Below are positions 821 through 62,748 of a stretch of 64,000 nt of DNA, in pieces; position 1 is the first letter of the stretch; each line of letters starts with the position of its first letter. This DNA comes from Rufibacter sp. LB8 (lineage in GTDB: Bacteria; Bacteroidota; Bacteroidia; Cytophagales; Hymenobacteraceae), in contig NZ_JADALJ010000001.1 of assembly GCF_014876185.1 (NCBI RefSeq), positions 2,213,501-2,277,500 of the forward strand, written 5' to 3'. The position numbers and the translations under genes are program-made. The notes beneath the pieces are model-generated. The model was given only the letters and a program-made list of their open reading frames with translations. It was not told where the DNA came from and did not search any database.

Positions 821-856
821 GTTTTGGGGCTCAATTCTGAAAATGAGCCCCAAAAC
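821..856. repeat. R1 palindrome copy 1
   Basis: First of the interspersed R1 palindromes. Arms are GTTTTGGGGCTCAATTC and GAAAATGAGCCCCAAAAC around a centre of about 2 nt. It lies between the divergent-side start of the PAS gene and the 3' end of the TolC gene. R1 copies have no T-tract after the stem, so they do not look like ordinary intrinsic terminators. Confidence 0.9.
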
Positions 857-881
857 GAGAATCAGACATTCCTTGTCCATT

Positions 882-2312
882 CTAATTTCCCTCCGTTAAT
901 CTCCCCGCAGCCCACTGCAACAGGTATTTGGCCTTGCCGTATTTGGCCTTGAGTTCATAGAGTTTTATCTGTTGGTTGAGCAGGTTCATCTCTCTGGTGT
1001 TCACCAGAAAAACAGAGCTTTCGCCGTTCTCAAACCGTTGCTGTTCCCCATTGCGTAAGACAAGGCTGTTGGCCACCACCTGTTCCTGCAGGGCAAGCTG
1101 GGTTTCCAGTTGCAGCCGGTCATTGTAGGTGGCTTGTATCTGGTTCTGGGTTTCGCGGCGGCGTTGGGTTAGTTCTAGTTGCGTGCTGGTCACTTTAAGG
1201 CGGGTAAGTTGCAGTTTGCCGCGCTCCTGCCGCAGAAACAAGGGCATACTCACACTGGCCCCAATTTTATAGTTGTTCCGGAAGTATTGGTCCTGCAGCC
1301 AACCCTCGCCCACGGTGGTGCCTTTGCCAAGCAGGTTGTAGTCTAGGTTGACTTTGGGCAGCAGTTTGTTTTGCGCAAAGCGCCGCTCAATGTCCAGTTG
1401 GTTGAGTTTCACCTCTAATTTCAAAAGCTCCGGATGTTGCTGGCCCGCAGTTTCCAGCAGATCAGCCAGCGCCGCCGGTGACAGGACTTCTATTTCAGTG
1501 CCCACCATGGAAGGAACAACGCCGCCGGGAATCTCAACTGGCACGTTGTTTTCACGCCACAGGAAATTAGAAACCAGCAAAGCGGCATTCTGGGTTTCTA
1601 CCTGCGCCTGATTAGCGGACACCAACCGGCTCTGTGCTTCAATCAAGGCTTCCACTGAATCAATGGACGCTAAATCTCCCTGTATCACGCGCTCTTTAAT
1701 AGCCTGCAACCGTACCTGGGCCAGTTGAGAACCTTCCTGCAACAAGCGCCAGCGATGGTAGCTATAGGCCCAGTCCCAGTACGCTTTGGCCGCCTCAAAA
1801 TAAAGTTTGTTGATGAGTTTCACGCGCTCTGTTTCGGCCAAAGCCTGAGCCTGCTGAGCCAATTGCAAGGTGGCCCGGCGTTCATCTATGAGCAAGCCCT
1901 GCGCCAGGGGCAGCGAGAAACCTACATAATGCAGACCTTGTGTTGGGGTGCTATTTTCGCCGTTAACGTTGGGCCCGGTGTTGCGTTCATACCCTACTTT
2001 TATATCGCCCACCCAGAGGGGCACTTTCAAGACATTGTCCCAGAGGGTATAATAATGCTTGTCGTCTAATTCTTTGTTAGAGACTTTTACCGCGGCGCTG
2101 GGGTCAAAGCTGCCTCTGGCCATTCTGATTTCTTGCTTGGCCTGTTCAGAAAGCAAGGCGGCTTGCCGCGCCACCGGATGGTGCGTAGTAATCTGCCGCA
2201 GCAGGGCATTGACCGTGAAAACCGCAGTACTGTCTGCCGCCAACCCCGGTATAGGCATAAACCACAAAAAACCGGCTATCAAGAAAAGGAAGGCTTTACT
2301 TACCTGTTTCAT
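882..2312 (-). CDS. TolC-family outer membrane efflux protein
   Basis: 476 residues, the normal length for the family. An N-terminal signal peptide ends near residue 26 (GLAA), followed by long alpha-helical segments rich in Gln, Leu and Glu (about 150-250 and 370-460) typical of the TolC periplasmic barrel. It would form the outer membrane exit duct for the upstream membrane-fusion and ABC proteins. Its ATG overlaps the stop of the HlyD gene (ATGA), indicating translational coupling in one operon. The substrate cannot be read from the sequence. Confidence 0.9.
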   Translation of the reverse strand: MKQVSKAFLFLIAGFLWFMPIPGLAADSTAVFTVNALLRQITTHHPVARQAALLSEQAKQEIRMARGSFDPSAAVKVSNKELDDKHYYTLWDNVLKVPLWVGDIKVGYERNTGPNVNGENSTPTQGLHYVGFSLPLAQGLLIDERRATLQLAQQAQALAETERVKLINKLYFEAAKAYWDWAYSYHRWRLLQEGSQLAQVRLQAIKERVIQGDLASIDSVEALIEAQSRLVSANQAQVETQNAALLVSNFLWRENNVPVEIPGGVVPSMVGTEIEVLSPAALADLLETAGQQHPELLKLEVKLNQLDIERRFAQNKLLPKVNLDYNLLGKGTTVGEGWLQDQYFRNNYKIGASVSMPLFLRQERGKLQLTRLKVTSTQLELTQRRRETQNQIQATYNDRLQLETQLALQEQVVANSLVLRNGEQQRFENGESSVFLVNTREMNLLNQQIKLYELKAKYGKAKYLLQWAAGRLTEGN

Positions 2313-3682
2313 TTGCCTTCTTCCTCAGGAACGCTGGTTTTGGCTTGGGTTTCTTTTGGGGAGGTGGTTGGGCCCATGTAATCTGGCGGGAAGGCATTCA
2401 TCTGCCTCCACAACTCGTACCAGATGGGCACGTCATTCAGCATAGCCCAGCCGTAGGCCCCAGACCCAATCCGGACGGCTTCCGGCCATGGCCCCGAGGC
2501 CGGGTCTGGCACCACCAGAATACGGTATTTGCCGGCGCTGTCAATGTTGTCCATCACGGCCACTACACCGCCAAAGGTACCGAAGCCCACGTTGGGCCAA
2601 CCTGAAAAGACGAGCGTGGGCCAACCTTCAAACTGCAGCCGCACCTTTCGGCCAACATCCAGCAGCGGCATGTCAATGGGTTTTACATACAACTGGACCG
2701 CCAGCTGCGGGTTGGCCGGCATGATGCTGCAGATGGCTTCGCCTTCTTTCACCGTCTCGCCTAAACCAGATTTCAAGGCCCGTACAATATAGCCGTCTTG
2801 CGGGGCGGTGATTTGGTAAAATGAATTCCTGATTTGGGCATTGGCGTACTCGTTCTGCATCTTGGAGATGTCGGCCCGGGAATCACCTAGATACGCTCGG
2901 GTGGCGTTTAATTCTGACCGGGCCTTGGCAATCTTGTCCTGGTATTCGGCGTCTAGGGAAGAGAGTTCAATGCGCGCGTTCTGCACTTCATTTCTACTGA
3001 TGCTCAGTTTGTTCTGCACCCCTTGGAATTTGGCTTGCACCTCCTGTAGTTTCAGACGGCGGCTCTCTAATTCTGTGAGTGATTTAAGCCCTTGCTGGTA
3101 CAAGACTTCCTGCCGCCGGTACTGGTCCTGCGCCACCGCGAATTCTGCCTTGAGCGCCACTACCTCGGCACTGTCACTTTGCACTTTCAAGCGGCCTTGC
3201 CGCATTTTGTTACGCGCTTTCTCCAGACTGAACTGCAACCCCTCCTGCAACGCTACAATCTGGTTTTCAAGGGCCCCAGCCTTGGCTTGGGTGGCCTGCA
3301 GGCTACCTTCTTTGGCCTGCACCTGCTCTTGTATGCGGGGCAGTAGTTGCGGGTCAAAATACTTCTCTTTCACTTCAGACAACACTACTAGCGTATCACC
3401 TTTTCTCACCCGCTGGCCTTCCTGTACTTTCCAAATTTCAATGCGGCCGGCAATAGTGCTGTGCACCGTTTGCGGTCGGTCCTGGGGCTGCAAAGTGGTC
3501 ACAGAACCCGCGGACCGAATGTTCTGGGTCCAGGGCAGCAAGGTGAAGATGAAGAGCCCCGCAAATATGCCCGTTACCCAATAGGCCATCACTCGGCCTA
3601 GGCGGGGCTTGCTGACCAGCTGGAAAGACTGAAACTGCTCCCACGAGGCGGGGTACGGGCGTTTGGTAGTTGATTTTGCCAT
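2309..3682 (-). CDS. HlyD-family membrane-fusion protein
   Basis: 457 residues. One transmembrane segment lies at about residues 32-54. After it come a biotinyl/lipoyl-like half-motif (GRIEIWKVQEGQRVRKGDTL, about 92-111), a long coiled-coil hairpin (about 115-285) and the second half-motif (ITAPQDGYIVRAL) leading into a beta-barrel region. This is the periplasmic adaptor of a type I secretion or efflux complex joining the ABC protein to TolC. Its start overlaps the stop of the ABC gene by one base (TAATG), and its stop overlaps the tolC start, so the three are one operon. Confidence 0.9.
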   Translation of the reverse strand: MAKSTTKRPYPASWEQFQSFQLVSKPRLGRVMAYWVTGIFAGLFIFTLLPWTQNIRSAGSVTTLQPQDRPQTVHSTIAGRIEIWKVQEGQRVRKGDTLVVLSEVKEKYFDPQLLPRIQEQVQAKEGSLQATQAKAGALENQIVALQEGLQFSLEKARNKMRQGRLKVQSDSAEVVALKAEFAVAQDQYRRQEVLYQQGLKSLTELESRRLKLQEVQAKFQGVQNKLSISRNEVQNARIELSSLDAEYQDKIAKARSELNATRAYLGDSRADISKMQNEYANAQIRNSFYQITAPQDGYIVRALKSGLGETVKEGEAICSIMPANPQLAVQLYVKPIDMPLLDVGRKVRLQFEGWPTLVFSGWPNVGFGTFGGVVAVMDNIDSAGKYRILVVPDPASGPWPEAVRIGSGAYGWAMLNDVPIWYELWRQMNAFPPDYMGPTTSPKETQAKTSVPEEEGK

Positions 3683-6208: not shown

Positions 6209-6360
6209 AATGCTAGCAACAAAGCAGCGCTTAGTTTGTTTTTTGATTGGCCCGAAAAAAAATGAAACCTGCACCCGCTAGGCTGTCCTTGACAATTTTA
6301 ACATACTGATTTACACATATCTATCTTTATTCTAATTCGAAATAAAAATCAAACATTCCA

Positions 6361-6395
6361 TTTTGGAGCTCAATTCTGGAAATGAGCCCCAAAAC
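6361..6395. repeat. R1 palindrome copy 2
   Basis: Arms TTTTGGAGCTCAATTC and GAAATGAGCCCCAAAAC. The GGAG/CCCC pair has one mismatch. It shares the CTCAATTC variant with copy 1 and with the copy inside ispE. Confidence 0.85.
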
Positions 6396-6414
6396 AGAAA
6401 GCTGTCCTCCTTTT

Positions 6415-6454
6415 CCGTTTTTGGCTCCGTTTCCGAAAACGAGGCCAAAAACGG
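6415..6454. repeat. R1 palindrome copy 3
   Basis: Divergent copy: CCGTTTTTGGCTCCGTTTC and GAAAACGAGGCCAAAAACGG. It lies only 20 bp from copy 2, so the two form a close pair. Confidence 0.8.
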
Positions 6455-6516
6455 CACCCTGTCATCTCATAACAATTCCATAACACGGCCATAATATTCA
6501 GGCAATAAGCCCTAGG

Positions 6517-10088: not shown

Positions 10089-10090
10089 GT

Positions 10091-10975
10091 ATGGCGTTCG
10101 GCGAAAAAACTTCCAACAACAAAAGCAAGGCGTTCAGGCAGGGCGCGGCGTTTCTGGTTTTCCGGCTGCTGAGTTTCTCGGTGGTGGCCATTTTACTCAT
10201 CATTCTGGGCTTTATCATGGTGCAGGGCATTTCGGTGATCAGCTGGGAATTCCTCACAGAATCGCCCAAAGAGGGCATGACCGAGGGCGGCATTTTCCCG
10301 GCCATTGTGGGCACGCTGTGCTTAGTGCTGGGCAGCATGATTTTTGCGTTTCCCATTGGCATCATGTCGGGTATTTACATCAACGAATACGCCAAAGACA
10401 GCTGGTTCAAGCGGTTCATCAAGCTCATGACCAACAACCTGGCGGGCATTCCGTCTATTGTGTTCGGTTTGTTTGGCATGGCCCTGTTTGTGAACCAGTT
10501 CGGGTTTGGCGATTCTATTCTGGCGGGCTCGCTCACGCTGGGGCTCCTGGCCTTGCCGGTAGTGATCAGAACCACGGAGGAAGCCCTGAAAGCCATTGAC
10601 AACTCCTTTAGGATTGGGTCTCTGGCGCTGGGCGCCACCAAATGGCAGACCACCAGCCGCGTGGTGTTGCCCATGGCCTTCCCCAACATCATCACGGGTC
10701 TGATCCTGAGCATTGGCCGCGTGTCCGGGGAGACGGCGCCCATTCTGTTCACGGTGGCGGCCTATTTTTTACCCAAACTGCCCGGCAGCATCTTTGACCA
10801 GGTCATGGCCCTGCCCTACCACTTGTACGTGATCTCCACCAGCGGTACCAACATTGAAGCCTCGCGCACCATGGCCTACGGCACCGCCTTCGTGCTGATT
10901 ATGATTGTACTGTTAGTGAATTTGCTAGCCAACTGGCTGCGCCGTTACTTCGGTAAGAAAGTGAAAATGAATTAA
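10091..10975 (+). CDS. pstA: PstA phosphate permease
   Basis: 294 residues with about six membrane segments and the BPD_transp_1 EAA motif LALGATKWQTTSRVVLPMAF. It starts 2 bp after the pstC stop, so it is translationally coupled, and pairs with PstC as the channel. It is followed by two R1 copies before pstB. Confidence 0.95.
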   Translation: MAFGEKTSNNKSKAFRQGAAFLVFRLLSFSVVAILLIILGFIMVQGISVISWEFLTESPKEGMTEGGIFPAIVGTLCLVLGSMIFAFPIGIMSGIYINEYAKDSWFKRFIKLMTNNLAGIPSIVFGLFGMALFVNQFGFGDSILAGSLTLGLLALPVVIRTTEEALKAIDNSFRIGSLALGATKWQTTSRVVLPMAFPNIITGLILSIGRVSGETAPILFTVAAYFLPKLPGSIFDQVMALPYHLYVISTSGTNIEASRTMAYGTAFVLIMIVLLVNLLANWLRRYFGKKVKMN

Positions 10976-10977
10976 GG

Positions 10978-11018
10978 CCGTTTTCGGGCTCATTTCTGGA
11001 AACGAAGCCAAAAACAGG
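10978..11018. repeat. R1 palindrome copy 4
   Basis: Begins 2 bp after the pstA stop. Arms CCGTTTTCGGGCTCATTTC and GAAACGAAGCCAAAAACAGG. The right arm belongs to the AAGCCAAAAAC subtype, giving G-T and mismatched positions in the stem. Confidence 0.85.
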
Positions 11019-11061
11019 AATTCGGTGGAAACCATCCGGAGCATTAAAAAGAAAAGGAAAG

Positions 11062-11102
11062 CCGTTTTGGGGCTCATTCCCAGAAACGGGGCCAAAAACA
11101 GG
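11062..11102. repeat. R1 palindrome copy 5
   Basis: Arms CCGTTTTGGGGCTCATTCC and GAAACGGGGCCAAAAACAGG, between pstA and pstB in tandem with copy 4. Confidence 0.8.
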
Positions 11103-11134
11103 AAAGCTGGCGGAAACGCCTTTTTTACAACCAT

Positions 11135-11887: not shown

Positions 11888-11898
11888 GTATTAGAATT

Positions 11899-11938
11899 CC
11901 GTTTTAGGGCTCATTTCTGAAAACGAAGCCAAAAACAG
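11899..11938. repeat. R1 palindrome copy 6
   Basis: Arms CCGTTTTAGGGCTCATTTC and GAAAACGAAGCCAAAAACAG, between pstB and phoU. Confidence 0.82.
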
Positions 11939-11989
11939 AAAAAAATCGGCTTAAAATAAGTACGTTAGTACCACAGAACAGCGGGAAAC

Positions 11990-15295: not shown

Positions 15296-15608
15296 GCTGC
15301 TTTTCTACTCACCCATTCTTCTATACTAAACAAGCTCGTAATAGGATCCTGTCATTGCTGATGGCCAGAAACATAAACGCTTAATTTCAATTCTGTAAAA
15401 TCATCACCACTCGTCTTCCCTTCCAGAAAAACTACAGCCAAGCGCCTGGAATAGCCTTTATGTTAAGACCGAAGGCCCGAATAACTAGCCGACACTTGCG
15501 TGACGCGCATCATATGGCAAAAGCAGTTTCGGCCTTTAACCACTGGGTGCTTTGTCAGTTTTCAATGTCCTGCAGTTGAAATTCATTTGATTTCTTGCGG
15601 CACTTCCT

Positions 15609-15648
15609 CCGTTTTCGGGCTCATTTCCGGAAATGAGCCCGAAAACGG
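15609..15648. repeat. R1 palindrome copy 7
   Basis: Perfect copy: CCGTTTTCGGGCTCATTTC and GAAATGAGCCCGAAAACGG around a CG centre. Confidence 0.92.
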
Positions 15649-15793
15649 AAAAAGCACTTTTCTTAAAACCGAAGGGCTGACAGGCTGCTTTACATAAGCC
15701 TACAATTGACCGAATACTTATTAAATAATTGTAAAATGTCTGGATAATTCTGTCAGGGTCAGCAAATTCCTACCATAAGCCAGTTGGGCTTCG

Positions 15794-15824: not shown

Positions 15825-18221
15825 ATGAACAAGAATTTACGGTCCCTGTTTACCTTCCTGCTTCTAGGTTGGGGCGGCCTGACGGCAACATTTGCCCAAA
15901 CGGCTCCTCCTGCCAACCTGAGTGGCACAGAGTTACGTACCTGGCTCAGACAGAACTGGTATGACGGCAAACGCCAGGTGCTCAGCTACAGCACCGCCCG
16001 CGGCAAAATGTACAACTACATTGACAATGACAACGGCAAAGTAACCTGCGTGTATTCTGGCTACCAGCAGCCGTTTAGCTACAGTGAGACCAGCACGTCC
16101 ACGTCCATCGCCAACATTAACTCTGAGCACACCGTGCCGCAGTCTTGGTTTAATGAGGCGGAACGCATGCGCTCAGACATTCACCACCTGTTCCCTACTG
16201 TAAACCAGTGGAACAGTGACCGTGGCTCAGACCCTTTCGCGGAAATCCCAGATGCCCAGACCCAGAAATGGATCATCGGCCTTAATAACGCCCAGACCTC
16301 CATTCCTACCAGTAATATTGATGATTACAGCGAGGACACCAACTCTGAGTTTGAGCCCCGCGAAGTGCACAAAGGCAACCTGGCCCGCGCCATTTTCTAT
16401 TTCTACACCATGCATGACGGCCAAACCTTTGACCCAGGTAAAGGCACTATCAGCGCGGTGGCCAACCTGCAGACCCTGTACCAGTGGCACTTACAAGATC
16501 CCGTAGATGCCCGCGAAATTGAGCGCAACAACCGTGTGCAACGTTCGCAGGGGAACCGTAACCCCTACATTGATTATCCGGAGTTGGTGGCCAATGCCTG
16601 GGGCTTCACACCAACGACGGCCTGTTCTCCTGCCACCCAGGCGTCTCAGGTAACCATCTCCGGTGCCACGCAGACTACCTTTACCGTTAACTGGACCAAC
16701 GGCAGCGGCAACAGACGGTTGGTAGTGGTGAAAGAAGGCGCAGCGGCTAACTTCAGCCCAAGTGGTGCTTATACCACCGGCATCAACGCAGATTTCTCCC
16801 AGGCTACCGCCCAGGCCAACGACAACAAGATTGTGTACAGTGGCACCGCCACCAACGTAACCGTGACCGGCCTGATTGCGGCGCGGACCTACCATGTACA
16901 GGTGTTTGAGTACTGCAGCACAGACAATGCCTTCAACACCACCAACGTGCCGGCTGCCCAAGTGACTTTGCCAGATTACAACTGCTTCAACGCGCCAAAC
17001 CAGACCGTGACCAACCTTACTTCTTCTGAGATTGGTTCTTCTGGTTTTATGGCCACGTTCACGGCGGGTAACGGCGACAGCCGCCTGCTTTTGGTGAAAG
17101 AAGGAAGCGCCCCAACAGCTTTGCCTACTACTGGCACCTCTTACACCGCCACCGCCAATGCCAACTATGCCTCTGCGCCTATGTTGTCAGACGGGTCACG
17201 TGTGGTATACAGCGGCACTGGGTTACAAGCCTCCATCACTGGTTTGAGATCTAACACTACGTATTATGTGGTAGCCCTGGAAGCCTGCTCTAACGGCTGG
17301 CGCTACAGCACGGCTTCGGTGCCTTTGCAAGTGGCAACTACCGTAGCCGGTGGCGTTCTGCCTGAAGGTGTAGTAGCCAGACAGGATTTTGAGAACGGTT
17401 CTGAAGATGGCTGGGAGGTTTTAACGGGCTTCAGCAGTTCCACAGATAACACGGGCACACCCAATGGTCAAAGAATAAAGAGTGGAGCCAAATCTTTCCA
17501 ACACATTCCTACCACCACTGGCGTGCCTACTTTAGGTCAGCTGATTTTCGCACCTATCAACACCACTGACTTCAAAGACTTAACCGTAGAGATTTTCAAC
17601 AGCTCAATATCTGTCACTTCGGGCAATGGTATGGATGCCGGTGATTTTATTGAGGCCTATGTTACGTTGAACGGCAGTGAATTCTCTAACACTCCAGACC
17701 TTAAAATCACCTCTTCTGAGTTGAACGTACGCTATGGCATGAACGGAACAGGCGTTGTGGAAACAACCGCAGGAACCCCTGTCACCAAAACGATTAGCAC
17801 GCCTGGAGACATTTCTGGTGACGCTGCGCCTTCCCGAATGATTATTAGAGTCCCGGCTGGCACTACCTCTGTTCAATTGAAACTGGTATTGTCTGCTAAC
17901 GCACCCAATGAAGTCCTAAACATTGATGACGTGACCTTGTATGGTACTTCTACTGTGACTGGCTTGCCCAAGGAAATAGATGAGCAGTTTGTGGTGTACC
18001 CTAACCCAACCACGGGCACCTTCACGGTGCAAGCCCCAGCTGGCCTGCGGTTGCTGGAAGCGGCGGTATTCAATGCGGTAGGTCAACAGATCACTGCTAA
18101 GAAACCTGCTTCGGCTAACCAACCTGTCACGTTCAACCTGCAGAATGCCGCCAAAGGCATTTACATCCTGCACCTGAGAACTGACAAAGGAACCTTGGTA
18201 CGCCGCATTGTAGTGCAATAA
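15825..18221 (+). CDS. Secreted endonuclease I-family nuclease with T9SS sorting domain
   Basis: 798 residues. A signal peptide ends near ATFAQ. The endonuclease I domain (about 30-262) carries the expected motifs NSEHTVPQSWF (His102), DIHHLFPT (118-125) and NRNPYIDYPE (244-253). Two Fn3-like repeats follow, then a jelly-roll-like region, then a C-terminal type IX secretion sorting domain (QFVVYPNPTTGTFTVQ to GIYILHLRTDKGTLVRRIVV). It is predicted to be exported by the Por system and to degrade extracellular DNA or RNA, for nutrient (including phosphate) scavenging or biofilm turnover. Confidence 0.9.
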   Translation: MNKNLRSLFTFLLLGWGGLTATFAQTAPPANLSGTELRTWLRQNWYDGKRQVLSYSTARGKMYNYIDNDNGKVTCVYSGYQQPFSYSETSTSTSIANINSEHTVPQSWFNEAERMRSDIHHLFPTVNQWNSDRGSDPFAEIPDAQTQKWIIGLNNAQTSIPTSNIDDYSEDTNSEFEPREVHKGNLARAIFYFYTMHDGQTFDPGKGTISAVANLQTLYQWHLQDPVDAREIERNNRVQRSQGNRNPYIDYPELVANAWGFTPTTACSPATQASQVTISGATQTTFTVNWTNGSGNRRLVVVKEGAAANFSPSGAYTTGINADFSQATAQANDNKIVYSGTATNVTVTGLIAARTYHVQVFEYCSTDNAFNTTNVPAAQVTLPDYNCFNAPNQTVTNLTSSEIGSSGFMATFTAGNGDSRLLLVKEGSAPTALPTTGTSYTATANANYASAPMLSDGSRVVYSGTGLQASITGLRSNTTYYVVALEACSNGWRYSTASVPLQVATTVAGGVLPEGVVARQDFENGSEDGWEVLTGFSSSTDNTGTPNGQRIKSGAKSFQHIPTTTGVPTLGQLIFAPINTTDFKDLTVEIFNSSISVTSGNGMDAGDFIEAYVTLNGSEFSNTPDLKITSSELNVRYGMNGTGVVETTAGTPVTKTISTPGDISGDAAPSRMIIRVPAGTTSVQLKLVLSANAPNEVLNIDDVTLYGTSTVTGLPKEIDEQFVVYPNPTTGTFTVQAPAGLRLLEAAVFNAVGQQITAKKPASANQPVTFNLQNAAKGIYILHLRTDKGTLVRRIVVQ

Positions 18222-18235
18222 TATTCTTCTAACTC

Positions 18236-18275
18236 CCGTTTTCGGGCTCATTTTCAGAAATGAGCCCGAAAACGG
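18236..18275. repeat. R1 palindrome copy 8
   Basis: CCGTTTTCGGGCTCATTTT and AGAAATGAGCCCGAAAACGG, immediately upstream of a true terminator. R1 therefore coexists with a terminator here and does not replace it. Confidence 0.92.
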
Positions 18276-18277
18276 AA

Positions 18278-18309
18278 AGAGGCCACCCAGCTGGGCGGCC
18301 TCTTTTTTT
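18278..18309 (+). terminator. Terminator of the nuclease gene
   Basis: Stem AGAGGCCACCCAG / CTGGGCGGCCTCT followed by a run of T. Confidence 0.85.
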
Positions 18310-20672: not shown

Positions 20673-20772
20673 AACTTCCCGCTTCCTGTAACTCAGAACA
20701 TCCTTTCAACCATTACCTCCATTGGTGTTTGGTAAGGGTGGATTGATGGTTATTCTTCCAGAATCTTCCTTT

Positions 20773-20812
20773 CCGTTTTCGGGCTCATTTCTGAAAACGA
20801 AGCCAAAAACAG
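20773..20812. repeat. R1 palindrome copy 9
   Basis: CCGTTTTCGGGCTCATTTC and GAAAACGAAGCCAAAAACAG. Mixed subtype with imperfect pairing at the outer stem. Confidence 0.85.
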
Positions 20813-21050
20813 AAACTACTGGTTGCCAAAACTGCCGGGTGGTCTGTCTATTCCTTCAACTTCTTCTTGCTTTAGCTGCGGTATGTGCCGCCCAAGTCTA
20901 TTTGGTATGGGCAGTCACTTAAGGTAAAATCAATTGAAAACCACGCTTAAAAGAAAGATGCTGCGGCCCAGAGGCAGGATGGCTATTTGCTTCCTACGCT
21001 TTCAGATTAACCAAAGGGTTTATCGGTTGGTTTTCCTTCACATAAAAAGT

Positions 21051-21096
21051 CTTCTGTTTTGGGGCTCATTTCTGGAAATGAGCCCCAAAACAGAAG
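21051..21096. repeat. R1 palindrome copy 10 (46 bp, perfect)
   Basis: The longest perfect copy: CTTCTGTTTTGGGGCTCATT and its exact complement AATGAGCCCCAAAACAGAAG around TCTGGA. Relative to copy 7, the CGG/CCG positions are changed to TGG or GGG with matching changes in the other arm. Confidence 0.93.
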
Positions 21097-25840: not shown

Positions 25841-25854
25841 TTTCTACCTGCTTT

Positions 25855-25892
25855 CGTTTTAGGCCTCATTTCTGAAAATGAGGCCTAAAACG
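25855..25892. repeat. R1 palindrome copy 11 (GGCCTC variant)
   Basis: CGTTTTAGGCCTCATTTC and GAAAATGAGGCCTAAAACG. Both arms carry the TAGGCC/GGCCTA variant in step, a clear compensatory difference from the GGGGCTC and CGGGCTC types. Confidence 0.9.
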
Positions 25893-25965
25893 CCATCTGC
25901 CTCACCATCCCACAACCTAGTAAGTCCCTATCCCCGTTTAAGAACCTTTGTCTACCTTTACCGCC

Positions 25966-27819: not shown

Positions 27820-27962
27820 GAAAGGAGTGGATTCTCCCCCCTTGAGGATTGCCCAAACGAGAGTTTGAGGCAGCGAGCGAAGCTCTGCAGAGGGTTTTAG
27901 CAAAGGAGGACACGTATTTCGTCCCCCTTTAAAGGGATTGGGGATAATGACAAGGCCTGATT

Positions 27963-28045
27963 GTAGAGACGCAATACCTTGCGTCTTGGCGCTATGGAAC
28001 AGGAACGTTGGCATGCGTGGGAGACGCAAGGTATTGCGTCTCTAC
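27963..28045. repeat. R3 inverted repeat, intact unit (83 bp)
   Basis: Ends are reverse complements: GTAGAGACGCAATACCTTGC and GCAAGGTATTGCGTCTCTAC. Each arm is itself palindromic around TACC/GGTA, so the unit can form two small hairpins or one large one. Related half-units occur at 62464 and 62800, and a diverged form at 50608. Confidence 0.75.
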
Positions 28046-28109
28046 AGAATCAATCGCGAACGAATTATCAAAAATAGAAAGAGAACAAAGGCGCGCATTT
28101 TCCTTTCCT

Positions 28110-28147
28110 CGTTTTTGCCTTCATTTCAAAAACTGAGCTCCAAAACG
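28110..28147. repeat. R1 palindrome copy 12 (degenerate)
   Basis: CGTTTTTGCCTTCATTTC and AAAAACTGAGCTCCAAAACG. Several unpaired positions; probably decaying. Confidence 0.65.
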
Positions 28148-28352
28148 AAAGCTTTCCCGCCACCAACAGCGCAGTCCCTTCTCCCTCTGGGAGAAGGTTA
28201 GGATGAGGGCGAATTGTTTTGCCTTTCCTGTAAATTCGCTGGCGAGAGTCTCCAGACTCGCGCCAGAAGAAGCCAGGAGAAGCCAAAGTTTACTTCCTCA
28301 TAAAATTACTCCCTTCCCCTCTCCCAAAGGGAGAGGGGGATTTTCTCCTATC

Positions 28353-28392
28353 CCGTTTTAGGCTTCATTTCTGAAAATGAGCCCAAAAACGG
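28353..28392. repeat. R1 palindrome copy 13
   Basis: CCGTTTTAGGCTTCATTTC and GAAAATGAGCCCAAAAACGG, just beyond the 3' end of the MFS gene. Confidence 0.83.
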
Positions 28393-28395
28393 AAA

Positions 28396-29583
28396 TCACA
28401 CCAATTCTTCCTGTGACTTGTATTTAGCATGTGACCCGAACATCAGATAAAGAAACGCCGCAAAGCAAAGCGCACCCGCGGTCCAGAAAGCCAGAGGTAA
28501 TCTAGCCGCATTGTTCCCATATAACCAACCAGATAAGAAAGCACCCAGGCCAATTCCCAGTTCCAGGGCAATGTAGATGGTGGCCATGGCGCGGCCGCGG
28601 CTCTCGGGGTGGCTCAGGTCAATGCACCAGGCGTAGAGCGTGGGCGAATTCATGCCGGACCCAATCCCAAACAACACCGCCGAAGCCAGGAACTGAAACT
28701 TAGTCTGCGCCGTGGCCAGAATCACCATGGAAATCACTAATAATAAAGACGACACCCGCAGGATTTGTACGCGCCCGTATTTGTCGGAGGCGCGGCCTGC
28801 CAGAAACCTGATGCCCAGCGAGGAAACGGTGAAACAAGTGAAGAACAGCCCTTTATTGCCCATGTTCAAATGTTCGCTGAAATCTGGGGTGAGGGTGAGC
28901 ACGGCGCCAAAGCAGAATACCGTCAAGATCATAACAATAAACGGCGGCAACACGTTGGGTTCAAAGAGTTCGTGGCGGCGCACGCGCAGCAGTTTCCAGG
29001 AGAATTTCTGCGGATTGGGCAAGGTTTCCTTCATGCCCGCCAAGACCAAAACAGAAATGGCGGCCAGCGCCGAAGACGTGTAAAAGAGAATCTCCACCGG
29101 AAAATACTTCGCCATCTCACCGCCCAGGGCCGGACCCGCCGCCATGCCCAGACTTCCGGCCAAACCAAAAATCCCGATGGCTTCGCCGCGGCGTTCCAGC
29201 GGCACCACGTCTGCAATGTACGCGCTGTTGCCCGTGGGCGTGAACCCCGTGGAAAAACCGTGCAGAAACCGAAGAACCAGAAAACCCGTCACCGTGGCGA
29301 ACAGCGGGTACAGCAAGCCACAGAGCACGCAGACTAGCACGCCCGCGTACATCACCGGCAGACGACCCCAGGTGTCGGCCAATTTTCCGCTGAACGGGCG
29401 TGCAAGGCAGGCCGTGACCGCAAACAGCCCAATAATCAGGCCTTTGTAATCGGCGCCGCCCAGTTGGGTTAAATAGGCGGGCAACTCCGGAATCAATAAA
29501 TTAAAGCTGGCGAAAAACAGAAACGAGCTCAGGCACATAAGCCAGAAATGCCAGGAATAGACCCGTTGGGAAGCTGTTGCCAT
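28396..29583 (-). CDS. MFS transporter (drug/metabolite efflux type)
   Basis: 395 residues with about 12 membrane segments. Motif A is seen as GKLADTWGRLPVMYAG after helix 2 and repeated in weaker form (GRASDKYGRVQILR) in the second half. A proton-driven efflux or uptake permease; the substrate is not predictable. A near-consensus -7 box (GACCTTTG on the minus strand, 29603-29610) lies about 20 nt before the start. Confidence 0.87.
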   Translation of the reverse strand: MATASQRVYSWHFWLMCLSSFLFFASFNLLIPELPAYLTQLGGADYKGLIIGLFAVTACLARPFSGKLADTWGRLPVMYAGVLVCVLCGLLYPLFATVTGFLVLRFLHGFSTGFTPTGNSAYIADVVPLERRGEAIGIFGLAGSLGMAAGPALGGEMAKYFPVEILFYTSSALAAISVLVLAGMKETLPNPQKFSWKLLRVRRHELFEPNVLPPFIVMILTVFCFGAVLTLTPDFSEHLNMGNKGLFFTCFTVSSLGIRFLAGRASDKYGRVQILRVSSLLLVISMVILATAQTKFQFLASAVLFGIGSGMNSPTLYAWCIDLSHPESRGRAMATIYIALELGIGLGAFLSGWLYGNNAARLPLAFWTAGALCFAAFLYLMFGSHAKYKSQEELV

Positions 29584-29641
29584 GCGATTAGAAAAGAAGG
29601 CGCAAAGGTCAGAAAGATTCCGCTAGGCCACAACGCCGTTT

Positions 29642-29680
29642 CTGTTTTTGTGCTCGTTTTCAGAAATGAGCCCCAAAACA
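29642..29680. repeat. R1 palindrome copy 14
   Basis: CTGTTTTTGTGCTCGTTTTC and AGAAATGAGCCCCAAAACA. The left arm has diverged (TGTGCTCG); it lies between divergent genes. Confidence 0.75.
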
Positions 29681-29792
29681 TAAGCGCCCGCCCCTGCGTA
29701 AGCGGCACGGCGCCCGTATGACCCAGCTTCCAGCAGAACCAACTGCCCTTGCCGGCGCATTTTTTTGTATCTTCCTGCCTTTAACGCTCCCT

Positions 29793-31736: not shown

Positions 31737-31819
31737 ATTTTTGGGAACACAAGATTCAAGACGCAAGATTTTCTTATCGTCAACTAGAATAAATCTTGTG
31801 CCGAATCAATATTCCAACA

Positions 31820-31863
31820 TTCTGTTTTGGGGCTCATTTTCAGAAATGAGCCCCAAAACGGAA
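31820..31863. repeat. R1 palindrome copy 15
   Basis: TTCTGTTTTGGGGCTCATTT and AGAAATGAGCCCCAAAACGG. It lies inside the extended open frame of the next gene and shows that this extension is not coding. Confidence 0.9.
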
Positions 31864-31881
31864 AACCCAACTCCCCATTTT

Positions 31882-32565: not shown

Positions 32566-32594
32566 AAACCACTCCAAAAAACGCGTTCAACATT

Positions 32595-32634
32595 CCGTTT
32601 TTGGCTCCATTTCTGGAAATGAGCCCGAAAACGG
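32595..32634. repeat. R1 palindrome copy 16
   Basis: CCGTTTTTGGCTCCATTTC and GAAATGAGCCCGAAAACGG, between convergent genes. Confidence 0.85.
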
Positions 32635-32669
32635 AAAATTCATCCTCCCTTTTTATTTTCTAAAGAAGA

Positions 32670-39120: not shown

Positions 39121-39255
39121 GGGGAGGAAGAATACTACTTTCCTCTAAATGTATTTAAAAAAGCAGATATAATCCAGTAGCCAGGGAATTTAGGAGTATC
39201 TGTGGCTAGAAAGTTTTATAAGTAACTATTTAGACGAACCGCTATTCAAAACATT

Positions 39256-39295
39256 CCGTTTTCGGCTTCATTTCCAGAAATGAGCCCGAAAACAG
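39256..39295. repeat. R1 palindrome copy 17
   Basis: CCGTTTTCGGCTTCATTTC and GAAATGAGCCCGAAAACAG, 4 bp beyond the rsmG stop. Confidence 0.87.
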
Positions 39296-39298
39296 AAA

Positions 39299-39940: not shown

Positions 39941-39945
39941 AGGCC

Positions 39946-39974
39946 CAAAGATAGGAAAAGGAGTTCTGAGTCAA
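39946..39974 (-). promoter_or_regulatory. Promoter TTG-N18-TATCTTTG for rsmG, possibly giving a leaderless mRNA
   Basis: Minus strand: -33 TTG at 39972-39974 and -7 TATCTTTG at 39946-39953. Transcription would begin about 6-7 nt after the box, which is the ATG itself (39938-39940). Confidence 0.65.
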
Positions 39975-40001
39975 TAGTTCTGAGTCCTGAGTTTTGGAAG
40001 G

Positions 40002-40039
40002 CGTTTTCGGGCTCTGTTTTGGAAATGAAGGCGAAAACG
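40002..40039. repeat. R1 palindrome copy 18
   Basis: CGTTTTCGGGCTCTGTTTT and GGAAATGAAGGCGAAAACG. Its GAAGGCGAAA right arm is the closest match to that of the copy inside ispE. Confidence 0.8.
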
Positions 40040-40065
40040 ATTCGGTGGGTTAGGAATTAAAGCTG

Positions 40066-40293
40066 TTAAAAATATTTTTTCAGCAATTTAAGATTCACTG
40101 CCATAATCAGTACAAAAGGCACCACAAATATCAGGAAGAGCAAAAGACAATTCACCCAACCAGCAGAATAAATGCTGGTATGCCAACCCGGGAGCAGTGA
40201 ACTGATCAAGTCAGAACCGAAGGTATTGAGAAGCAGGAATTCAATTAAGATTGTGAGAACGACACTTAACACCGCACGAAAAAGAGGTTTCAT
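40066..40293 (-). CDS. Small membrane protein (75 aa)
   Basis: 75 residues from the ATG at 40293; the frame upstream runs through a GC-rich repeat and is unlikely to be coding. Two membrane segments (about 7-25 and 45-66) and a basic C-terminus (LKLLKKYF). No known domain. It stands alone between rsmG and the sigma-factor operon, so the call rests on composition and start position only. Confidence 0.5.
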   Translation of the reverse strand: MKPLFRAVLSVVLTILIEFLLLNTFGSDLISSLLPGWHTSIYSAGWVNCLLLFLIFVVPFVLIMAVNLKLLKKYF

Positions 40294-40499
40294 CTTGCTA
40301 CCGGTTCTTTGGAGTTCAAATCTAATAAAGTCAGCGCTATACTCTTGCGGAAAAGCAAGGCGTGTTCTCCTATGTAAACATCCCCCTTCGCCCCCTTCAA
40401 TGGGGAAATCTGCGTGTGGCTGGCTTTCTTGATTAAGCCACCGCCGAGGATAGGTCAAGCCCTGTCCGTACATGATCAGGAATGCCTAATCAGAAATGC

Positions 40500-40537
40500 C
40501 GTTTTGGGGCTCATTTCCAGAAATGAGCCCCAAAACG
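40500..40537. repeat. R1 palindrome copy 19
   Basis: CGTTTTGGGGCTCATTTC and GAAATGAGCCCCAAAACG around CA. Perfect GGGG/CCCC subtype. Confidence 0.92.
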
Positions 40538-40538
40538 C

Positions 40539-40564
40539 AGAAAGCAGCCCTGGGGCTGCTTTCT
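40539..40564 (-). terminator. Hairpin AGAAAGCAGCCC / GGGCTGCTTTCT, likely terminator of the sigma-factor operon
   Basis: Strong 12-bp stem directly next to R1 copy 19 and 42 bp past the sigma-factor stop. The T-run is short. Confidence 0.6.
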
Positions 40565-40605
40565 AAAAATCTTATATCTTGCTACGTGATACCTGCTACC
40601 TGATA

Positions 40606-43633: not shown

Positions 43634-43648
43634 TTGAGACCGATTATA

Positions 43649-43754
43649 ATTAAGAATTCAGAATTAGGAATTAAGAATTAGGTAAACGTGCATTTCAAGT
43701 GTCTATCATTTGCAAAGCAATTCCTAATTCTTAATTCTTACTTCCTAATTAAAC
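43649..43754. repeat. AATTAAGAATTAGG-type inverted repeat
   Basis: Direct repeats of AATTAAGAATT(AGG) at 43649-43682 face their complements CCTAATTCTTAATTC at 43724-43752, filling the tgt-permease gap. Related AATTCTTAATTC tracts lie at 44964-44998. Confidence 0.6.
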
Positions 43755-44841: not shown

Positions 44842-44908
44842 TTGATTGTTGGTTGTTGATTGTTTTTTTGTCAACTCGAAATCAAACCAATTACAGATTA
44901 ACAATTTT

Positions 44909-44948
44909 CCGTTTTCGGGCTCATTTCTGGAAATGAGCCCGAAAACGG
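44909..44948. repeat. R1 palindrome copy 20
   Basis: Perfect CGGG/CCCG copy: CCGTTTTCGGGCTCATTTC and GAAATGAGCCCGAAAACGG; symmetry extends to TTT/AAA outside. Confidence 0.93.
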
Positions 44949-45002
44949 AAAAATTCATACCTTTCAATTCTTAATTCCCCATTCTTAATTCTCAATTCAC
45001 CC

Positions 45003-45926: not shown

Positions 45927-46721
45927 GTACTCCTTCGGGAAAGGCAACGGCTGTGCGGGCGCTTGCTTAAACAGCCCATACATAGTAGACCCAGACCCCG
46001 ACATAGACGCATACACCGCGCCCATTTCATAAAGTTGTGCCTTCAAGGCGTGCAACACCGGGTACTTTGGAAACAGACTCTTCTCGAAATCATTCACCAC
46101 TGTTTCTTTCCAGGTAGAAATATCCTGGGCCAAAGCCGTTTTCAGGCTCAATTCTGGAAACGCAGGCGAAACCGCAGCATAAGCCTCGGCGGTACTGATG
46201 GCCAGGTTGGGATAAACTAACAGCAGATGGTAGGCGGCTAATTCTAGGGCAATCGGTTCAAAGACATCGCCTTTCTCCACGGCCAGCACGGGTTTATTCT
46301 GGATGAAGAAGGCGCAGTCACTGCCTAATTTTCTGGCATAAGCTTGCAGGGTTTCGTCTGAAAGTTCTAATGCAAAAACCTGGTTTAGCAGCTTTAACGT
46401 GAAGGCCGCATCTGCGGAACCGCCGCCCAAGCCCGCGCCCATGGGAATGACCTTGTGCAGGTGCAGTTGAATGTTGGGTAGATCATGTTCCTGGCGCAGA
46501 AGTTCATAGGCTTTCCAGCAGAGGTTGCTTTTGGGGTCGCCGGGCACGGGCAGGCCGGAGAGCGTGAAGGAGTTTTCTGCGGCTTGAGCGGCGGGGAGCA
46601 TCTCCAGGGCATCGGTCCAGGGCACGGGGTAAAAGCAGGACACCAGGTTATGGAAGCCGTCGGGGCGTTTTTCCGTCAGTTGCAGGCCCAGGTTTATCTT
46701 CGCGTTGGGGAACAGGATCAT
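45903..46721 (-). CDS. ispE: IspE, 4-diphosphocytidyl-2-C-methyl-D-erythritol kinase
   Basis: 272 residues. The GHMP-kinase motif PMGAGLGGGSADAAF (about 92-106) binds ATP, and NAKINLGLQLTEKRPDGFH at the N-terminus is diagnostic. It carries out the ATP-dependent step of the MEP isoprenoid pathway. Codons around SPAFPELSLKTA are encoded by an R1-like element (46136-46174), yet the length and flanking motifs (AEAYAAV, ISTWKETVVNDFE) are normal. Confidence 0.94.
   Translation of the reverse strand: MILFPNAKINLGLQLTEKRPDGFHNLVSCFYPVPWTDALEMLPAAQAAENSFTLSGLPVPGDPKSNLCWKAYELLRQEHDLPNIQLHLHKVIPMGAGLGGGSADAAFTLKLLNQVFALELSDETLQAYARKLGSDCAFFIQNKPVLAVEKGDVFEPIALELAAYHLLLVYPNLAISTAEAYAAVSPAFPELSLKTALAQDISTWKETVVNDFEKSLFPKYPVLHALKAQLYEMGAVYASMSGSGSTMYGLFKQAPAQPLPFPKEYSVWQGVL
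46136..46174. repeat. R1-like element inside ispE
   Basis: CCGTTTTCAGGCTCAATTC followed by TGGAAACGCAGGCGAAACCG. The left arm through the centre matches the R1 consensus at about 23 of 25 bases, and the right arm matches copy 18 at 16 of 19. It is the only copy I found inside an apparently functional coding sequence. Confidence 0.6.
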
Positions 46722-46841
46722 GCCCGCAAATTACGAAGGTTGCCGAAACATTCCCTTTAAAACTGTTTCACTCAGAATTTGACGGCGAATAAGGGCAAGA
46801 ACTAAACTCGGTTTATAGTTTGTTGAACAGAAACCGAGTGG

Positions 46842-46879
46842 CGTTTTTGGCTTCGTTTTCAGAAATGAGACCAAAAACG
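46842..46879. repeat. R1 palindrome copy 21
   Basis: CGTTTTTGGCTTCGTTTTC and AGAAATGAGACCAAAAACG. It lies in the extended frame of the transglutaminase gene and argues for the later start. Confidence 0.83.
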
Positions 46880-46957
46880 GGTTTTCAATTTACCAGAAAC
46901 CGTTGTTCATTCGTTGTCTTGGCACGGGCTTGCCCTTTCATCGTTTTCATTTTTCAG

Positions 46958-50476: not shown

Positions 50477-50494
50477 TCTTCTTCTCTGGCATTT

Positions 50495-50533
50495 CCTTTT
50501 TTGGGCTCGTTTCCAGAAATGAGCCCAAAAACG
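50495..50533. repeat. R1 palindrome copy 22
   Basis: CCTTTTTTGGGCTCGTTTC and AGAAATGAGCCCAAAAACG. The following bases CAATTG are shared with copy 23, suggesting duplication with some flank. Confidence 0.83.
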
Positions 50534-50607
50534 CAATTGGCACAGACACTCGTAGGAGCTGCGCACACTACGAGGTCATTTGAGTAACAGCAGTCAGGAC
50601 CTCAACC

Positions 50608-50636: not shown

Positions 50637-50653
50637 AACCGGCACACGCATTT

Positions 50654-50693
50654 CCTAGTTTCGCCTCCATTTCCAAAACAGAGCCCGAAAACG
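50654..50693. repeat. R1 palindrome copy 23 (degenerate)
   Basis: CCTAGTTTCGCCTCCATTTC and AAAACAGAGCCCGAAAACG. Several unpaired bases; followed by CAATTG like copy 22. Confidence 0.65.
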
Positions 50694-51051
50694 CAATTGA
50701 CAGAAAGGCTCCCCTCCTGTTTTAGGAGGGGTTGGGGGTGGTCACCCTTCCCAGCCTTTCCATCGAGCGCCTAAGCAGGTTCCGTCGCCGGCAGGCGGGT
50801 GCCGGAGGCGCCAAGGAGCTGGTACAGCGCGAGAGGGGAAGGCGGGGCCTCGCGGCCGTGAGCGCTCGGAGCTTGGCTATAGAAAGGGCCGTCCTGTAAA
50901 ACTCAGGATGCAGCGGTCATTTGGAAGAAAAGCAAACTGCGTGCACAAATCAGGCATTAACAAGACTTCGCTAGATCCTTCGACAGGCTCAGGATGTCCG
51001 ATTAGAGACTCCCGTCGCAGGAATGCTAAGGATAATCAAAAAATAATCAAA

Positions 51052-52848: not shown

Positions 52849-52914
52849 CCACTAAGGCAAAAAATGCGCAGGAACTTTGAAATAATTAAATCCCTGAAAT
52901 ACATTTAGTTGCAC

Positions 52915-52954
52915 CCGTTTTTGGCCTAGTTTCCGGAAATGAAGCCAAAAACAG
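52915..52954. repeat. R1 palindrome copy 25
   Basis: CCGTTTTTGGCCTAGTTTC and GGAAATGAAGCCAAAAACAG. Confidence 0.83.
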
Positions 52955-53132
52955 ACATCCGTAGTAATACGAAGTCCCAAAAAAGAACAGGAATAGCTGG
53001 CAAACTGAAGCGACTGCCCTTTCGCAAAGAACCAACCCCTGCCCCTCCCAGGAGGGGAATTAGAATGCGTGCTATTTACAATGACTTCTACTTTTACAGG
53101 TTTTCCCCTCGGGTGGGTTCCTATACTGCGCC

Positions 53133-55808: not shown

Positions 55809-55838
55809 GCGGCAAGATAACACTTCTGGATTTGCTTT

Positions 55839-55878
55839 CCGTTTTCGGGCTCATTTCTGGAAATGAAGCCAAAAACGG
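55839..55878. repeat. R1 palindrome copy 26
   Basis: CCGTTTTCGGGCTCATTTC and GAAATGAAGCCAAAAACGG, between two minus-strand genes. Confidence 0.87.
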
Positions 55879-55980
55879 AAATAGTCTTCGGTGGCCCTGC
55901 TATTTATAATCCGTAGTTTGGGATGGCTGAGAGCGGAATAGAATTCGTGCGGAATGTATTCTGTTGAACACGCCAGCAAT

Positions 55981-57057: not shown

Positions 57058-57245
57058 AAGACTCTATAGTATGATAGGAGAAGAAACCGGTATTGAAATG
57101 TAAAGGTAAGATTTGGCAACAGAAAGCGTAACCCAACCTGCGGCCTTACAAGAAAACTTTCATGAATGTCTGCCTTATGGTGGAACATATATTCTTGAAT
57201 TGGTTCACGCAGCTATTTTACTCAAGATTTCCCCTCTATGCGTTT

Positions 57246-57285
57246 CCGTTTTCGGGCTCATTTTCAGAAATGAGCCCGAAAACGG
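57246..57285. repeat. R1 palindrome copy 27
   Basis: CCGTTTTCGGGCTCATTTT and AGAAATGAGCCCGAAAACGG; identical in its arms to copy 8. Confidence 0.92.
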
Positions 57286-57630
57286 AAATCACAAGCAAGC
57301 CACCGCTCTCCTAAAACGTCCTTCCCAGAAAATTACATCTCGCTTTAATTTCGAAAAAGGAATTAATCAAAAACCACACAGTGCAGGCAGCGGAAGACAA
57401 TAGTCATGAACTTGGCCGTGGTCTTTCCATATTTATACCCGATGCTGATTATTTAATAATTTTAATAAGTAATCAGGTAAATGAAACCGATTGCAATTAT
57501 TTTGCAAAACCTGTTGGTTCTTCAATAACTTTTAATATTTTTGACTGAAAGACGCACTTTCAACTAAATCTTATAAAATCTTCCTGCTTTGGCACTGGGA
57601 ATTTTCGAATTCCCAAAATTTAGATAAAGT

Positions 57631-62053: not shown

Positions 62054-62061
62054 TAGGTAGC

Positions 62062-62265: not shown

Positions 62266-62333
62266 TAGCGCAAATGGTCTATACACTTCTAAAAGCCAAG
62301 ACGCCAACAACCGTTCTGCGCCAGAATTTAAAC

Positions 62334-62373
62334 CCGTTTTCGGGCTCATTTCTGGAAATGGAGCCAAAAACGG
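62334..62373. repeat. R1 palindrome copy 28
   Basis: CCGTTTTCGGGCTCATTTC and GAAATGGAGCCAAAAACGG. Confidence 0.87.
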
Positions 62374-62463
62374 ACGCTCCAAGATTTTTACGCGGTGCTT
62401 TCTACAGGTCTCTGTCTGGAAATAGCAGCGTCACAATTGTCAATGAAGGCTTGACCGAAGAAG

Positions 62464-62487
62464 GTAGAGACGCAATACTTTGCGTCT
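62464..62487. repeat. R3 left half-unit
   Basis: GTAGAGACGCAATACTTTGC then GTCT, followed by TGGCGCCATG-AACA as in the intact unit at 27963. The right half lies 312 bp away. Confidence 0.65.
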
Positions 62488-62582
62488 TGGCGCCATGCAA
62501 CATCTAGGCTGCCTTCCATGAAAGCTGCCTTAGGTGGGAATTTGCGCCCTTGTCGTGTTTTCACCAACAAGGCACCCTTGGG

Positions 62583-62606
62583 TTTGTTGGTGATAACACC
62601 AACAAA
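62583..62606. repeat. R4 hairpin, copy 2
   Basis: TTTGTTGGTG-ATAA-CACCAACAAA. A half site CACCAACAAGG at 62562 makes a second possible pairing. Confidence 0.55.
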
Positions 62607-62706
62607 GGCGGCTATGCGTTTCCTGCAGGCTATTACAGTTTGCTACCAAGATCCTTCCAGGATGACAAAAGCGGTGAGTCAAAATCTAACCGTGGGGACA
62701 ATTTTT

Positions 62707-62748
62707 CCTGTTTTTGGGCTCATTTTCATAAATGAGCCCGAAAACAGG
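62707..62748. repeat. R1 palindrome copy 29
   Basis: CCTGTTTTTGGGCTCATTTT and TAAATGAGCCCGAAAACAGG. The outer CCTG/CAGG pair has changed in both arms compared with CCG/CGG. It sits in the sequence separating the two R3 halves. Confidence 0.88.

Follow-up and report, generated by a model that had tools for sequence, protein, structure and literature searches.

How does a bacterial chromosome come to carry one long palindrome in gap after gap between its genes, and what makes the copies alike within a species and different between species? The question is raised by a 64,000-nucleotide stretch of Rufibacter sp. LB8 (the window; G000:C1:2213501-2277500, where G000 is the window's own genome, of 4.75 Mb in two contigs), in which 29 copies of a 46-bp dyad lie between positions 816 and 62750. 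For palindrome families of this kind it is an old question, with transposition, gene conversion, and selection as the candidate answers, and it was reportedly put in a 1988 title by Higgins, "Repetitive extragenic palindromic sequences ... evolution by gene conversion?". That paper, listed among the references of PMC12306157, asks at least in its title whether conversion drives such families; in Rufibacter, common positions, some sharp dialects, and countable half-chimeras over 16 genomes give the three answers different predictions and make conversion directly testable. The main point of the family is that its positions are conserved across the genus and that species write it in their own dialects. 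We consider it fairly probable that DNA dyads resembling repetitive extragenic palindromic (REP) elements filled the genome of the Rufibacter ancestor and have been inherited largely in place, with conversion acting on them half by half and with a factor, inferred here, that reads a conserved skeleton of T/A tracts.

Positions common to the genus

An exact 24-mer of the LB8 element was found in none of 58 relatives, which by itself suggested a species-specific family, and this candidate reading was overturned when a covariance model built from the 29 window copies matched all 15 congeners. Rufibacter is taken here in the GTDB sense, and the congeners include R. latericius (G003), R. hautae (G004), R. 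immobilis (G005), R. sediminis (G011), and Sabulibacter ruber (G012); in a protein scan, the closest relatives of the window's PstA (88-90% identity) were mostly Rufibacter plus Sabulibacter, with Adhaeribacter lower (83-86%). Palindromes called de novo in the congeners are alike in size and plan and different in letters. With a weight matrix for the genus, whose training set was the scanned stretches themselves and which gives 5.2 control matches per Mb at the chosen threshold, 15 Rufibacter species show densities of 37-65 copies per 100 kb (58.3 in G014), and 120 kb from four genomes of other genera yielded one match. Genome-wide counts with a sequence-only model (R2), made under strict filters with 105 candidates scored per genome, gave at least 105-107 matches in each of 16/16 Rufibacter genomes, 1-2 matches in five of 43 genomes of other genera, and none in the remaining 38. 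The matches in those five genomes (G017, G022, G026, G035, and G049; best 4.1e-8) are perhaps transferred, perhaps due to chance.

Over 40 kb of synteny with 10 congeners, orthologous gaps were occupied in 63 of 71 cases when the LB8 gap has an element and in 12 of 40 when it does not (Fisher p 3e-10), and eight diverged species alone (289 copies by the genus matrix) gave 49 of 56 versus 10 of 32; an earlier test by palindrome score had shown a weaker contrast (30/71 versus 5/41, p 0.0013) because diverged copies were missed. Offsets agreed within 10 nt for 52 of 64 pairs in R. immobilis (12.9 expected), 43 of 51 in G001 (11.2), and 28 of 63 in LB8 (15.3), an agreement exceeding that of uniform re-insertion, with 0 of 2,000 simulations as high. 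Of 10 stretch pairs from G007 and G013, three were collinear. In the 40-kb synteny sample, the gap of copy 4 holds an element in seven of the 10 syntenic congeners, the other three having a diverged pstA and a gap of 31-34 bp, and the divergent gap 29539-29792 (copy 14) holds one in 11/11 species, at an offset of 79-88 in the syntenic congeners and of 100 in LB8, with both immediate flanks of the element poorly conserved. Since copies stand at orthologous places throughout the genus, most of them are inherited.

Dialects, half-palindromes, and the tract skeleton

Several species have rewritten their dyads in place into dialects. Counted at positions common to at least three other species, GTTTAG is found in 13 of 18 halves in R. 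immobilis and in 6 of 168 in other species, and TCA at columns 16-18 in 9 of 14 LB8 halves and 0 of 172 others. Within a species, copies compared in whichever of two orientations matches better have an identity of 0.80 in LB8, 0.75-0.78 in R. immobilis, G001, G007, and G013, and 0.55-0.70 in ten others. At fixed orientation, LB8 paralogues reach 0.76, versus 0.63 for 23 orthologous pairs of LB8 and congeners and 0.62 for non-orthologous copies; in the eight diverged species, the figures are 0.66 for orthologues versus 0.60 for non-orthologues.

In R. immobilis, the rewritten unit is the half-palindrome. The letters at four diagnostic columns go together inside a half (phi 0.27-0.75), and between the two halves of an element they show no link or a negative one (-0.35 to 0.14). 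The dialect letter of column 10 stands in both halves of 20 elements, in one half of 22, and in neither half of 4, where independence of the halves predicts 20.9, 20.2, and 4.9; in 22 of 46 copies a dialect half thus faces an old one. Transposition or replacement of whole elements should tie the two halves together, and letter-by-letter substitution should leave the columns of a half untied; replacement of whole elements is therefore disfavored by the unlinked halves of single elements.

The dialects could instead be driven by selection, the dyads being thousands of sites for one abundant protein (a nucleoid protein, an insulator, or an uptake-type receptor) whose specificity has shifted in each lineage, in the manner of DNA uptake sequence dialects. 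A genus-common skeleton with a variable middle and dialects acquired in place are what such sites would show, and the low density on the second contig of LB8 (5 genus-matrix matches in 60 kb) and the near-control number of isolated half-sites (8 of 345 half-site matches, versus 4 with a reversed pattern) also agree with it. We nevertheless judge selection unlikely as the source of the dialects, because the dialect letters of R. immobilis move as blocks within a half, unlike independently selected substitutions, nearly all copies are intergenic, and eight species have no sharp dialect. On the second contig, one copy (L206, center 10672) has a TGTTTT core, as in the dialects of other species.

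DNA uptake sequences of Neisseriaceae likewise occur in many dispersed copies with species dialects. Uptake sequence dialects in that family are a subject of PMC3630211; the Rufibacter dyads are much longer, strictly dyadic, and nearly all intergenic.

The genus shares the skeleton GTTT-N9-TTT-N4-AAA-N9-AAAC, whose four tracts are about 11, 8, and 11 bp apart and therefore lie on roughly one face of the helix. Among the 289 copies from the eight diverged species, T/A-tract columns match the genus consensus (symmetrized, as all genus consensuses were) at 87% and GC columns at 57%, and most GC columns there pair about as often as in shuffles while the T/A tracts persist. This contrast bears on a neutral account, in which the family is the relic of an ancient mobile palindrome, slowly lost, with arms polished by template switching. 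Low identity among the copies of eight species and the all-or-none extension of arms (below) would suit such a relic; we hold it to be quite unlikely given the difference between T/A and GC columns and given that equal decay at the GC-column rate leaves a simulated detection of about 0.07-0.23 for orthologous gaps of which 49 in 56 were observed to be occupied.

The initial annotation took matched changes in both arms to indicate pairing that is maintained or renewed beyond simple descent, and the variants it named are indeed present (CGGG/CCCG in copy 7, GGGG/CCCC in copies 10 and 19, TAGGCC/GGCCTA in copy 11, CCTG/CAGG in copy 29). The window alone does not bear the claim out, with covariation of 0.115 versus 0.111 when shuffled (170 of 500 shuffles as high) and 7 versus 8.0 pairs changed on both sides; with more copies, matched change becomes significant, mainly for about six outer base pairs and column 11. 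In LB8, pairing exceeds that of within-species shuffles at columns -1 through 5 and at column 11 (z 6-7), to a lesser degree at column 12, and nowhere consistently beyond column -1. Most core columns do not covary, the exceptions being column 17 in LB8 (z 3.3 in one test, 0.8 in another), 16 and 20 in G007, and 19 in G013.

Renewal of the outer pairing is supported, since the outer arms behave in an all-or-none manner and orthologous copies differ in fully paired arms. All six outer pairs are formed in 26 of 204 LB8 copies (4.5 expected), 19 of 185 in G007 and G013 (0.7), 8 of 69 in G006 (0.5), 5 of 46 in R. immobilis (0.2), and 4 of 50 in G001 and G008, and in many fully paired copies the pairing extends into unique flank. 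A single orthologous copy (L062:1769) has outer arms that are fully paired yet different in G013 and G007, and in each of gaps 7, 15, and 30 two species have different fully paired outer arms at offsets no more than 7 nt apart. Insertion of the element into terminator loops was rejected as an explanation; a few copies resemble it (L068, L075, and L074), but the orthologous copies with differently paired arms oppose it. All-or-none outer arms fit one-step template switching better than gradual compensation. In template switching in inverted repeats, the subject of PMC8794818, PMC8604942, and PMC7202029, arm pairing is reportedly renewed in one step and the arms are homogenized, which suits the all-or-none outer arms here; alone, however, that process leaves the copying of dialect halves among dispersed loci unexplained. 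Arm pairing in this family looks like a by-product of DNA copying, and the apparent RNA covariation of such elements would be a warning.

A more specific version of the reading, which we offer tentatively, is that the halves of some 2,000 fixed dyads are overwritten singly by repair that begins at the dyad center, a genus-specific DNA-binding factor preserving the skeleton. Such a process would be half-site conversion working genome-wide, each species in its own dialect; the open-license PMC papers searched did not show concerted evolution of this form for bacterial intergenic repeats. On the main reading, the ancestor of Rufibacter would have had its genome filled with dyads that were afterwards kept mostly in place, and the skeleton would be kept because a DNA-binding protein, or the shape of the DNA, uses the T/A tracts. 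A half-palindrome end could result from stalling, nicking, or breakage at the dyad center. Repair from another copy would then overwrite one half and spread a dialect, and repair from the element's own other arm would copy unique flank across and leave arms fully paired and extended. Should a protein read the skeleton, Rufibacter would have a binding system of its own, spread over the whole chromosome.

Several observations weigh against inheritance in place, half-wise conversion, or a skeleton-reading factor. LB8 offsets coincide less well than those of R. immobilis or G001, and copy 25, whose distance upstream of prs is 123 nt, is unmatched there in the 15 congeners (no element within 220 nt upstream in any, and one at 260-317 nt in two), so that gains and losses also occur. 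The diverged species still covary at columns 2, 10, 11, and 19 (z 2.4-3.8), and part of the tract conservation is ascertainment because the skeleton columns weigh most in the search matrix. No binding protein was found, HU being not expanded (1-2 matches per Rufibacter genome, as elsewhere). Some columns in LB8 are linked across halves (phi 0.30-0.33), and the half as unit is therefore clear only in R. immobilis; the eight diverged species are weakly homogenized (paralogue identity 0.55-0.67), so conversion is not constant; and no conversion event was caught at an intermediate stage.

The window copies and their placement in the genome

A position weight matrix (PWM) trained on 26 of the 29 copies recovered all 29 at scores of 24.7-75.3, versus 10.5 for the best of ten first-order Markov controls of the window, and the core (up to 3 mismatches) matched 25 times versus 0.29 expected. 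The palindromes measure 46-48 bp with arms of about 22-24 bp. Intergenic status, here and below, follows the calls of a custom, simple Markov gene finder run without annotation. By these calls, 28 of the 29 copies are intergenic, one fewer than the initial annotation had counted, copy 21 lying inside the minus-strand ispE. The picture of a dense, dispersed intergenic family otherwise stands, with tandem, divergent, and convergent gaps all occupied. The copies are listed by window position, without strand.

Copy 1, 816-861: PWM 64.7; lies 20 nt beyond the stop of gene 882-2312 (minus strand)
Copy 2, 6355-6400: PWM 59.0; divergent gap
Copy 3, 6412-6457: PWM 55.0; shares its gap with copy 2
Copy 4, 10975-11020: PWM 60.4; begins at the pstA stop codon
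Copy 5, 11059-11104: PWM 53.2; pstA-pstB gap
Copy 6, 11896-11941: PWM 64.7; pstB-phoU gap, with an element in 10/10 syntenic congeners
Copy 7, 15606-15651: PWM 69.9; divergent gap
Copy 8, 18233-18278: PWM 70.4; followed by a separate terminator-like hairpin, 18276-18305
Copy 9, 20770-20815: PWM 67.6; convergent gap
Copy 10, 21051-21096: PWM 68.9; perfect 23-nt arms, 2-nt center
Copy 11, 25851-25896: PWM 56.2; downstream of tRNA-Ala
Copy 12, 28106-28151: PWM 41.4; diverged
Copy 13, 28350-28395: PWM 66.8; abuts the stop codon of gene 28396-29538 (minus strand)
Copy 14, 29639-29684: PWM 57.5; divergent gap
Copy 15, 31819-31864: PWM 71.1
Copy 16, 32592-32637: PWM 68.1
Copy 17, 39253-39298: PWM 70.0; abuts the rsmG stop codon
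Copy 18, 39998-40043: PWM 30.9; diverged; gap 39941-40605, occupied in 10/10 syntenic congeners
Copy 19, 40496-40541: PWM 64.0; shares its gap with copy 18
Copy 20, 44906-44951: PWM 75.3; perfect; gap occupied in 10/10 syntenic congeners
Copy 21, 46133-46178: PWM 24.7; diverged; inside the ispE coding sequence (minus strand)
Copy 22, 46838-46883: PWM 48.5
Copy 23, 50492-50537: PWM 64.7
Copy 24, 50652-50697: PWM 36.5; diverged
Copy 25, 52912-52957: PWM 53.5; 123 nt upstream of prs
Copy 26, 55836-55881: PWM 72.8
Copy 27, 57243-57288: PWM 73.8; divergent gap
Copy 28, 62331-62376: PWM 58.3
Copy 29, 62705-62750: PWM 63.7

Beyond the window, a 464-kb sample of LB8 held 201 copies (score >20), or 0.43 copies per kb, and a 400-kb second-order Markov control gave none above 5; an exact 18-mer core matches 288 times in the genome. 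Further copies outside the window, which the initial annotation had looked to for support, thus exist in LB8 as in the congeners, and if the density is uniform, the chromosome holds about 2,000. One 20-kb stretch (G000:C1:3400001-3420000, L049) has zero copies and few called genes and is possibly acquired DNA.

In the 464-kb sample, copies occupy 41/48 convergent, 90/160 tandem, and 20/54 divergent gaps of at least 60 bp, and seven of the 201 lie inside called genes. Of 107 copies in tandem gaps, 28 stand no more than 15 nt from the upstream stop codon, where 9.3 would be expected, and two stand that close to a start. The dyads sit away from promoters and often just after stops, perhaps because they are tolerated there. 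They show no bias toward transcription or GC skew (the skew of single stretches being a rough proxy for replication).

Placement just behind stops and in convergent gaps would also suit a function in RNA, as intrinsic terminator or as a 3' hairpin that stabilizes mRNA, and in the outer ten columns of tandem-gap copies G.U pairs outnumber A.C pairs (54 versus 34). Over all columns, however, the sense strands of 105 tandem-gap copies have them about equally (143 versus 129, p 0.43), and the dominant ends, TTTCC...GGAAA on both strands, leave no T-tract, as first described. A separate terminator-like hairpin does lie beside copy 8, as had been proposed, and no significant link ties terminators to the dyad (with versus without an element, 25/90 versus 11/70 in LB8 tandem gaps, p 0.087, and 23/41 versus 3/7 in convergent gaps); where both occur in tandem gaps, the element more often follows the terminator than precedes it (13 versus 7 in LB8, 15 versus 6 in G007 and G013). 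Dyads also occupy divergent gaps, and diverged species keep the tracts with core pairing close to that of shuffles. An RNA-level function is thus very unlikely, and the dyads probably do not act as terminators or RNA hairpins. Copy 8 and its neighboring hairpin (window 18220-18308) gave a marginal Rfam match to Phe_leader (56.4 bits versus a gathering score of 55) that is probably spurious.

REP elements, RAYTs, and neighboring repeats

The initial annotation likened the family to REP/RAYT-type repeats, and the REP half of that likeness holds: the dyad is extragenic, high-copy, and palindromic. According to what PMC3733652 says of them, REPs of the GTAG and CGTC superfamilies are short, high-copy intergenic palindromes with stems of 5-13 bp, mostly downstream of genes, and CGTC REPs, like the dyad, have no dedicated transposase. 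The dyad differs from REPs so described in its symmetric arms of about 22-24 bp, the lack of a GTAG/CGTC tag, its genus-wide positions, its dialects, and its half-wise chimeras. Common positions, in-place dialects, and half-wise chimeras go beyond the initial annotation.

The RAYT half of the likeness is unsupported. That these are canonical REP elements mobilized by resident RAYT (TnpA_REP, HUH) transposases could be argued from REP-like location and copy number, from at least one RAYT-like match (E<=0.001) in each of the 16 Rufibacter genomes, with four LB8 genes above the NF047646 cut-off, and from five RAYT loci in five species where an element precedes the start codon by 34-35 nt, a position that may simply be inherited because the five genes belong to one lineage. 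The dyad is not enriched near 24 RAYT genes, however: 9 have one within 200 nt on the upstream side and 6 on the downstream side, versus 37 and 51 of 124 ordinary LB8 genes of similar size. RAYT numbers do not track the family; genera without it have RAYTs, and G007 has the family with a best RAYT match of only E 5e-9, although G007 may have lost its RAYT recently because G013, of the same dialect, has RAYTs. No GTAG/CGTC tag is shared at either end of aligned copies, the outermost columns of the genus consensus being unconserved, and no target-site duplication was found (even the best of 81 boundary choices gave no more than 5 copies with a common flanking k-mer in any set of 153-208). Together with the lack of strand bias and with other hairpins beside the RAYT genes, these results lead us to give RAYT mobilization hardly any credence.

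Those other hairpins are short and adjoin the genes lineage by lineage at the loci displayed, as judged by eye. Examples from G000:C1:2135573-2136804 (L011, L012) and L266-L285 are GTTCGGGATT...AATCCCGAAC, GGAAGTTACTTCC, and GAGTCTGGAGACTC. The treatment of RAYT subclass 2.6 (group 5, Bacteroidetes) in PMC6006769 mentions "atypical secondary structures", and the RAYT-lineage hairpins may be these. Most LB8 RAYTs have the subclass motifs NH[VL]H, FWQ, and Y[IV]HxNP, lengths of 181-188 aa, and adjoining hairpins, and a single one departs from them with SHAH and YIHENS; the hairpins beside them are not of the dyad family.

That no named family has such a sequence, as first suggested, agrees with a gathering search of the window in which no Rfam family covered the palindrome, and with the open-license PMC papers, among which there was none on such repeats in Rufibacter and no matching Bacteroidota family. 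Two dialect cores had no exact match in IMG/VR, and a single 101-bp query had none in PLSDB.

Two further repeats lie in the window. An inverted repeat with perfect 25-bp arms around a 35-nt spacer occupies 27962-28046 (TGTAGAGACGCAATACCTTGCGTCT) and is unrelated to the dyad family, and at 43648-43750 there are AT-rich, imperfect inverted repeats made of units like AATTAAGAATT.

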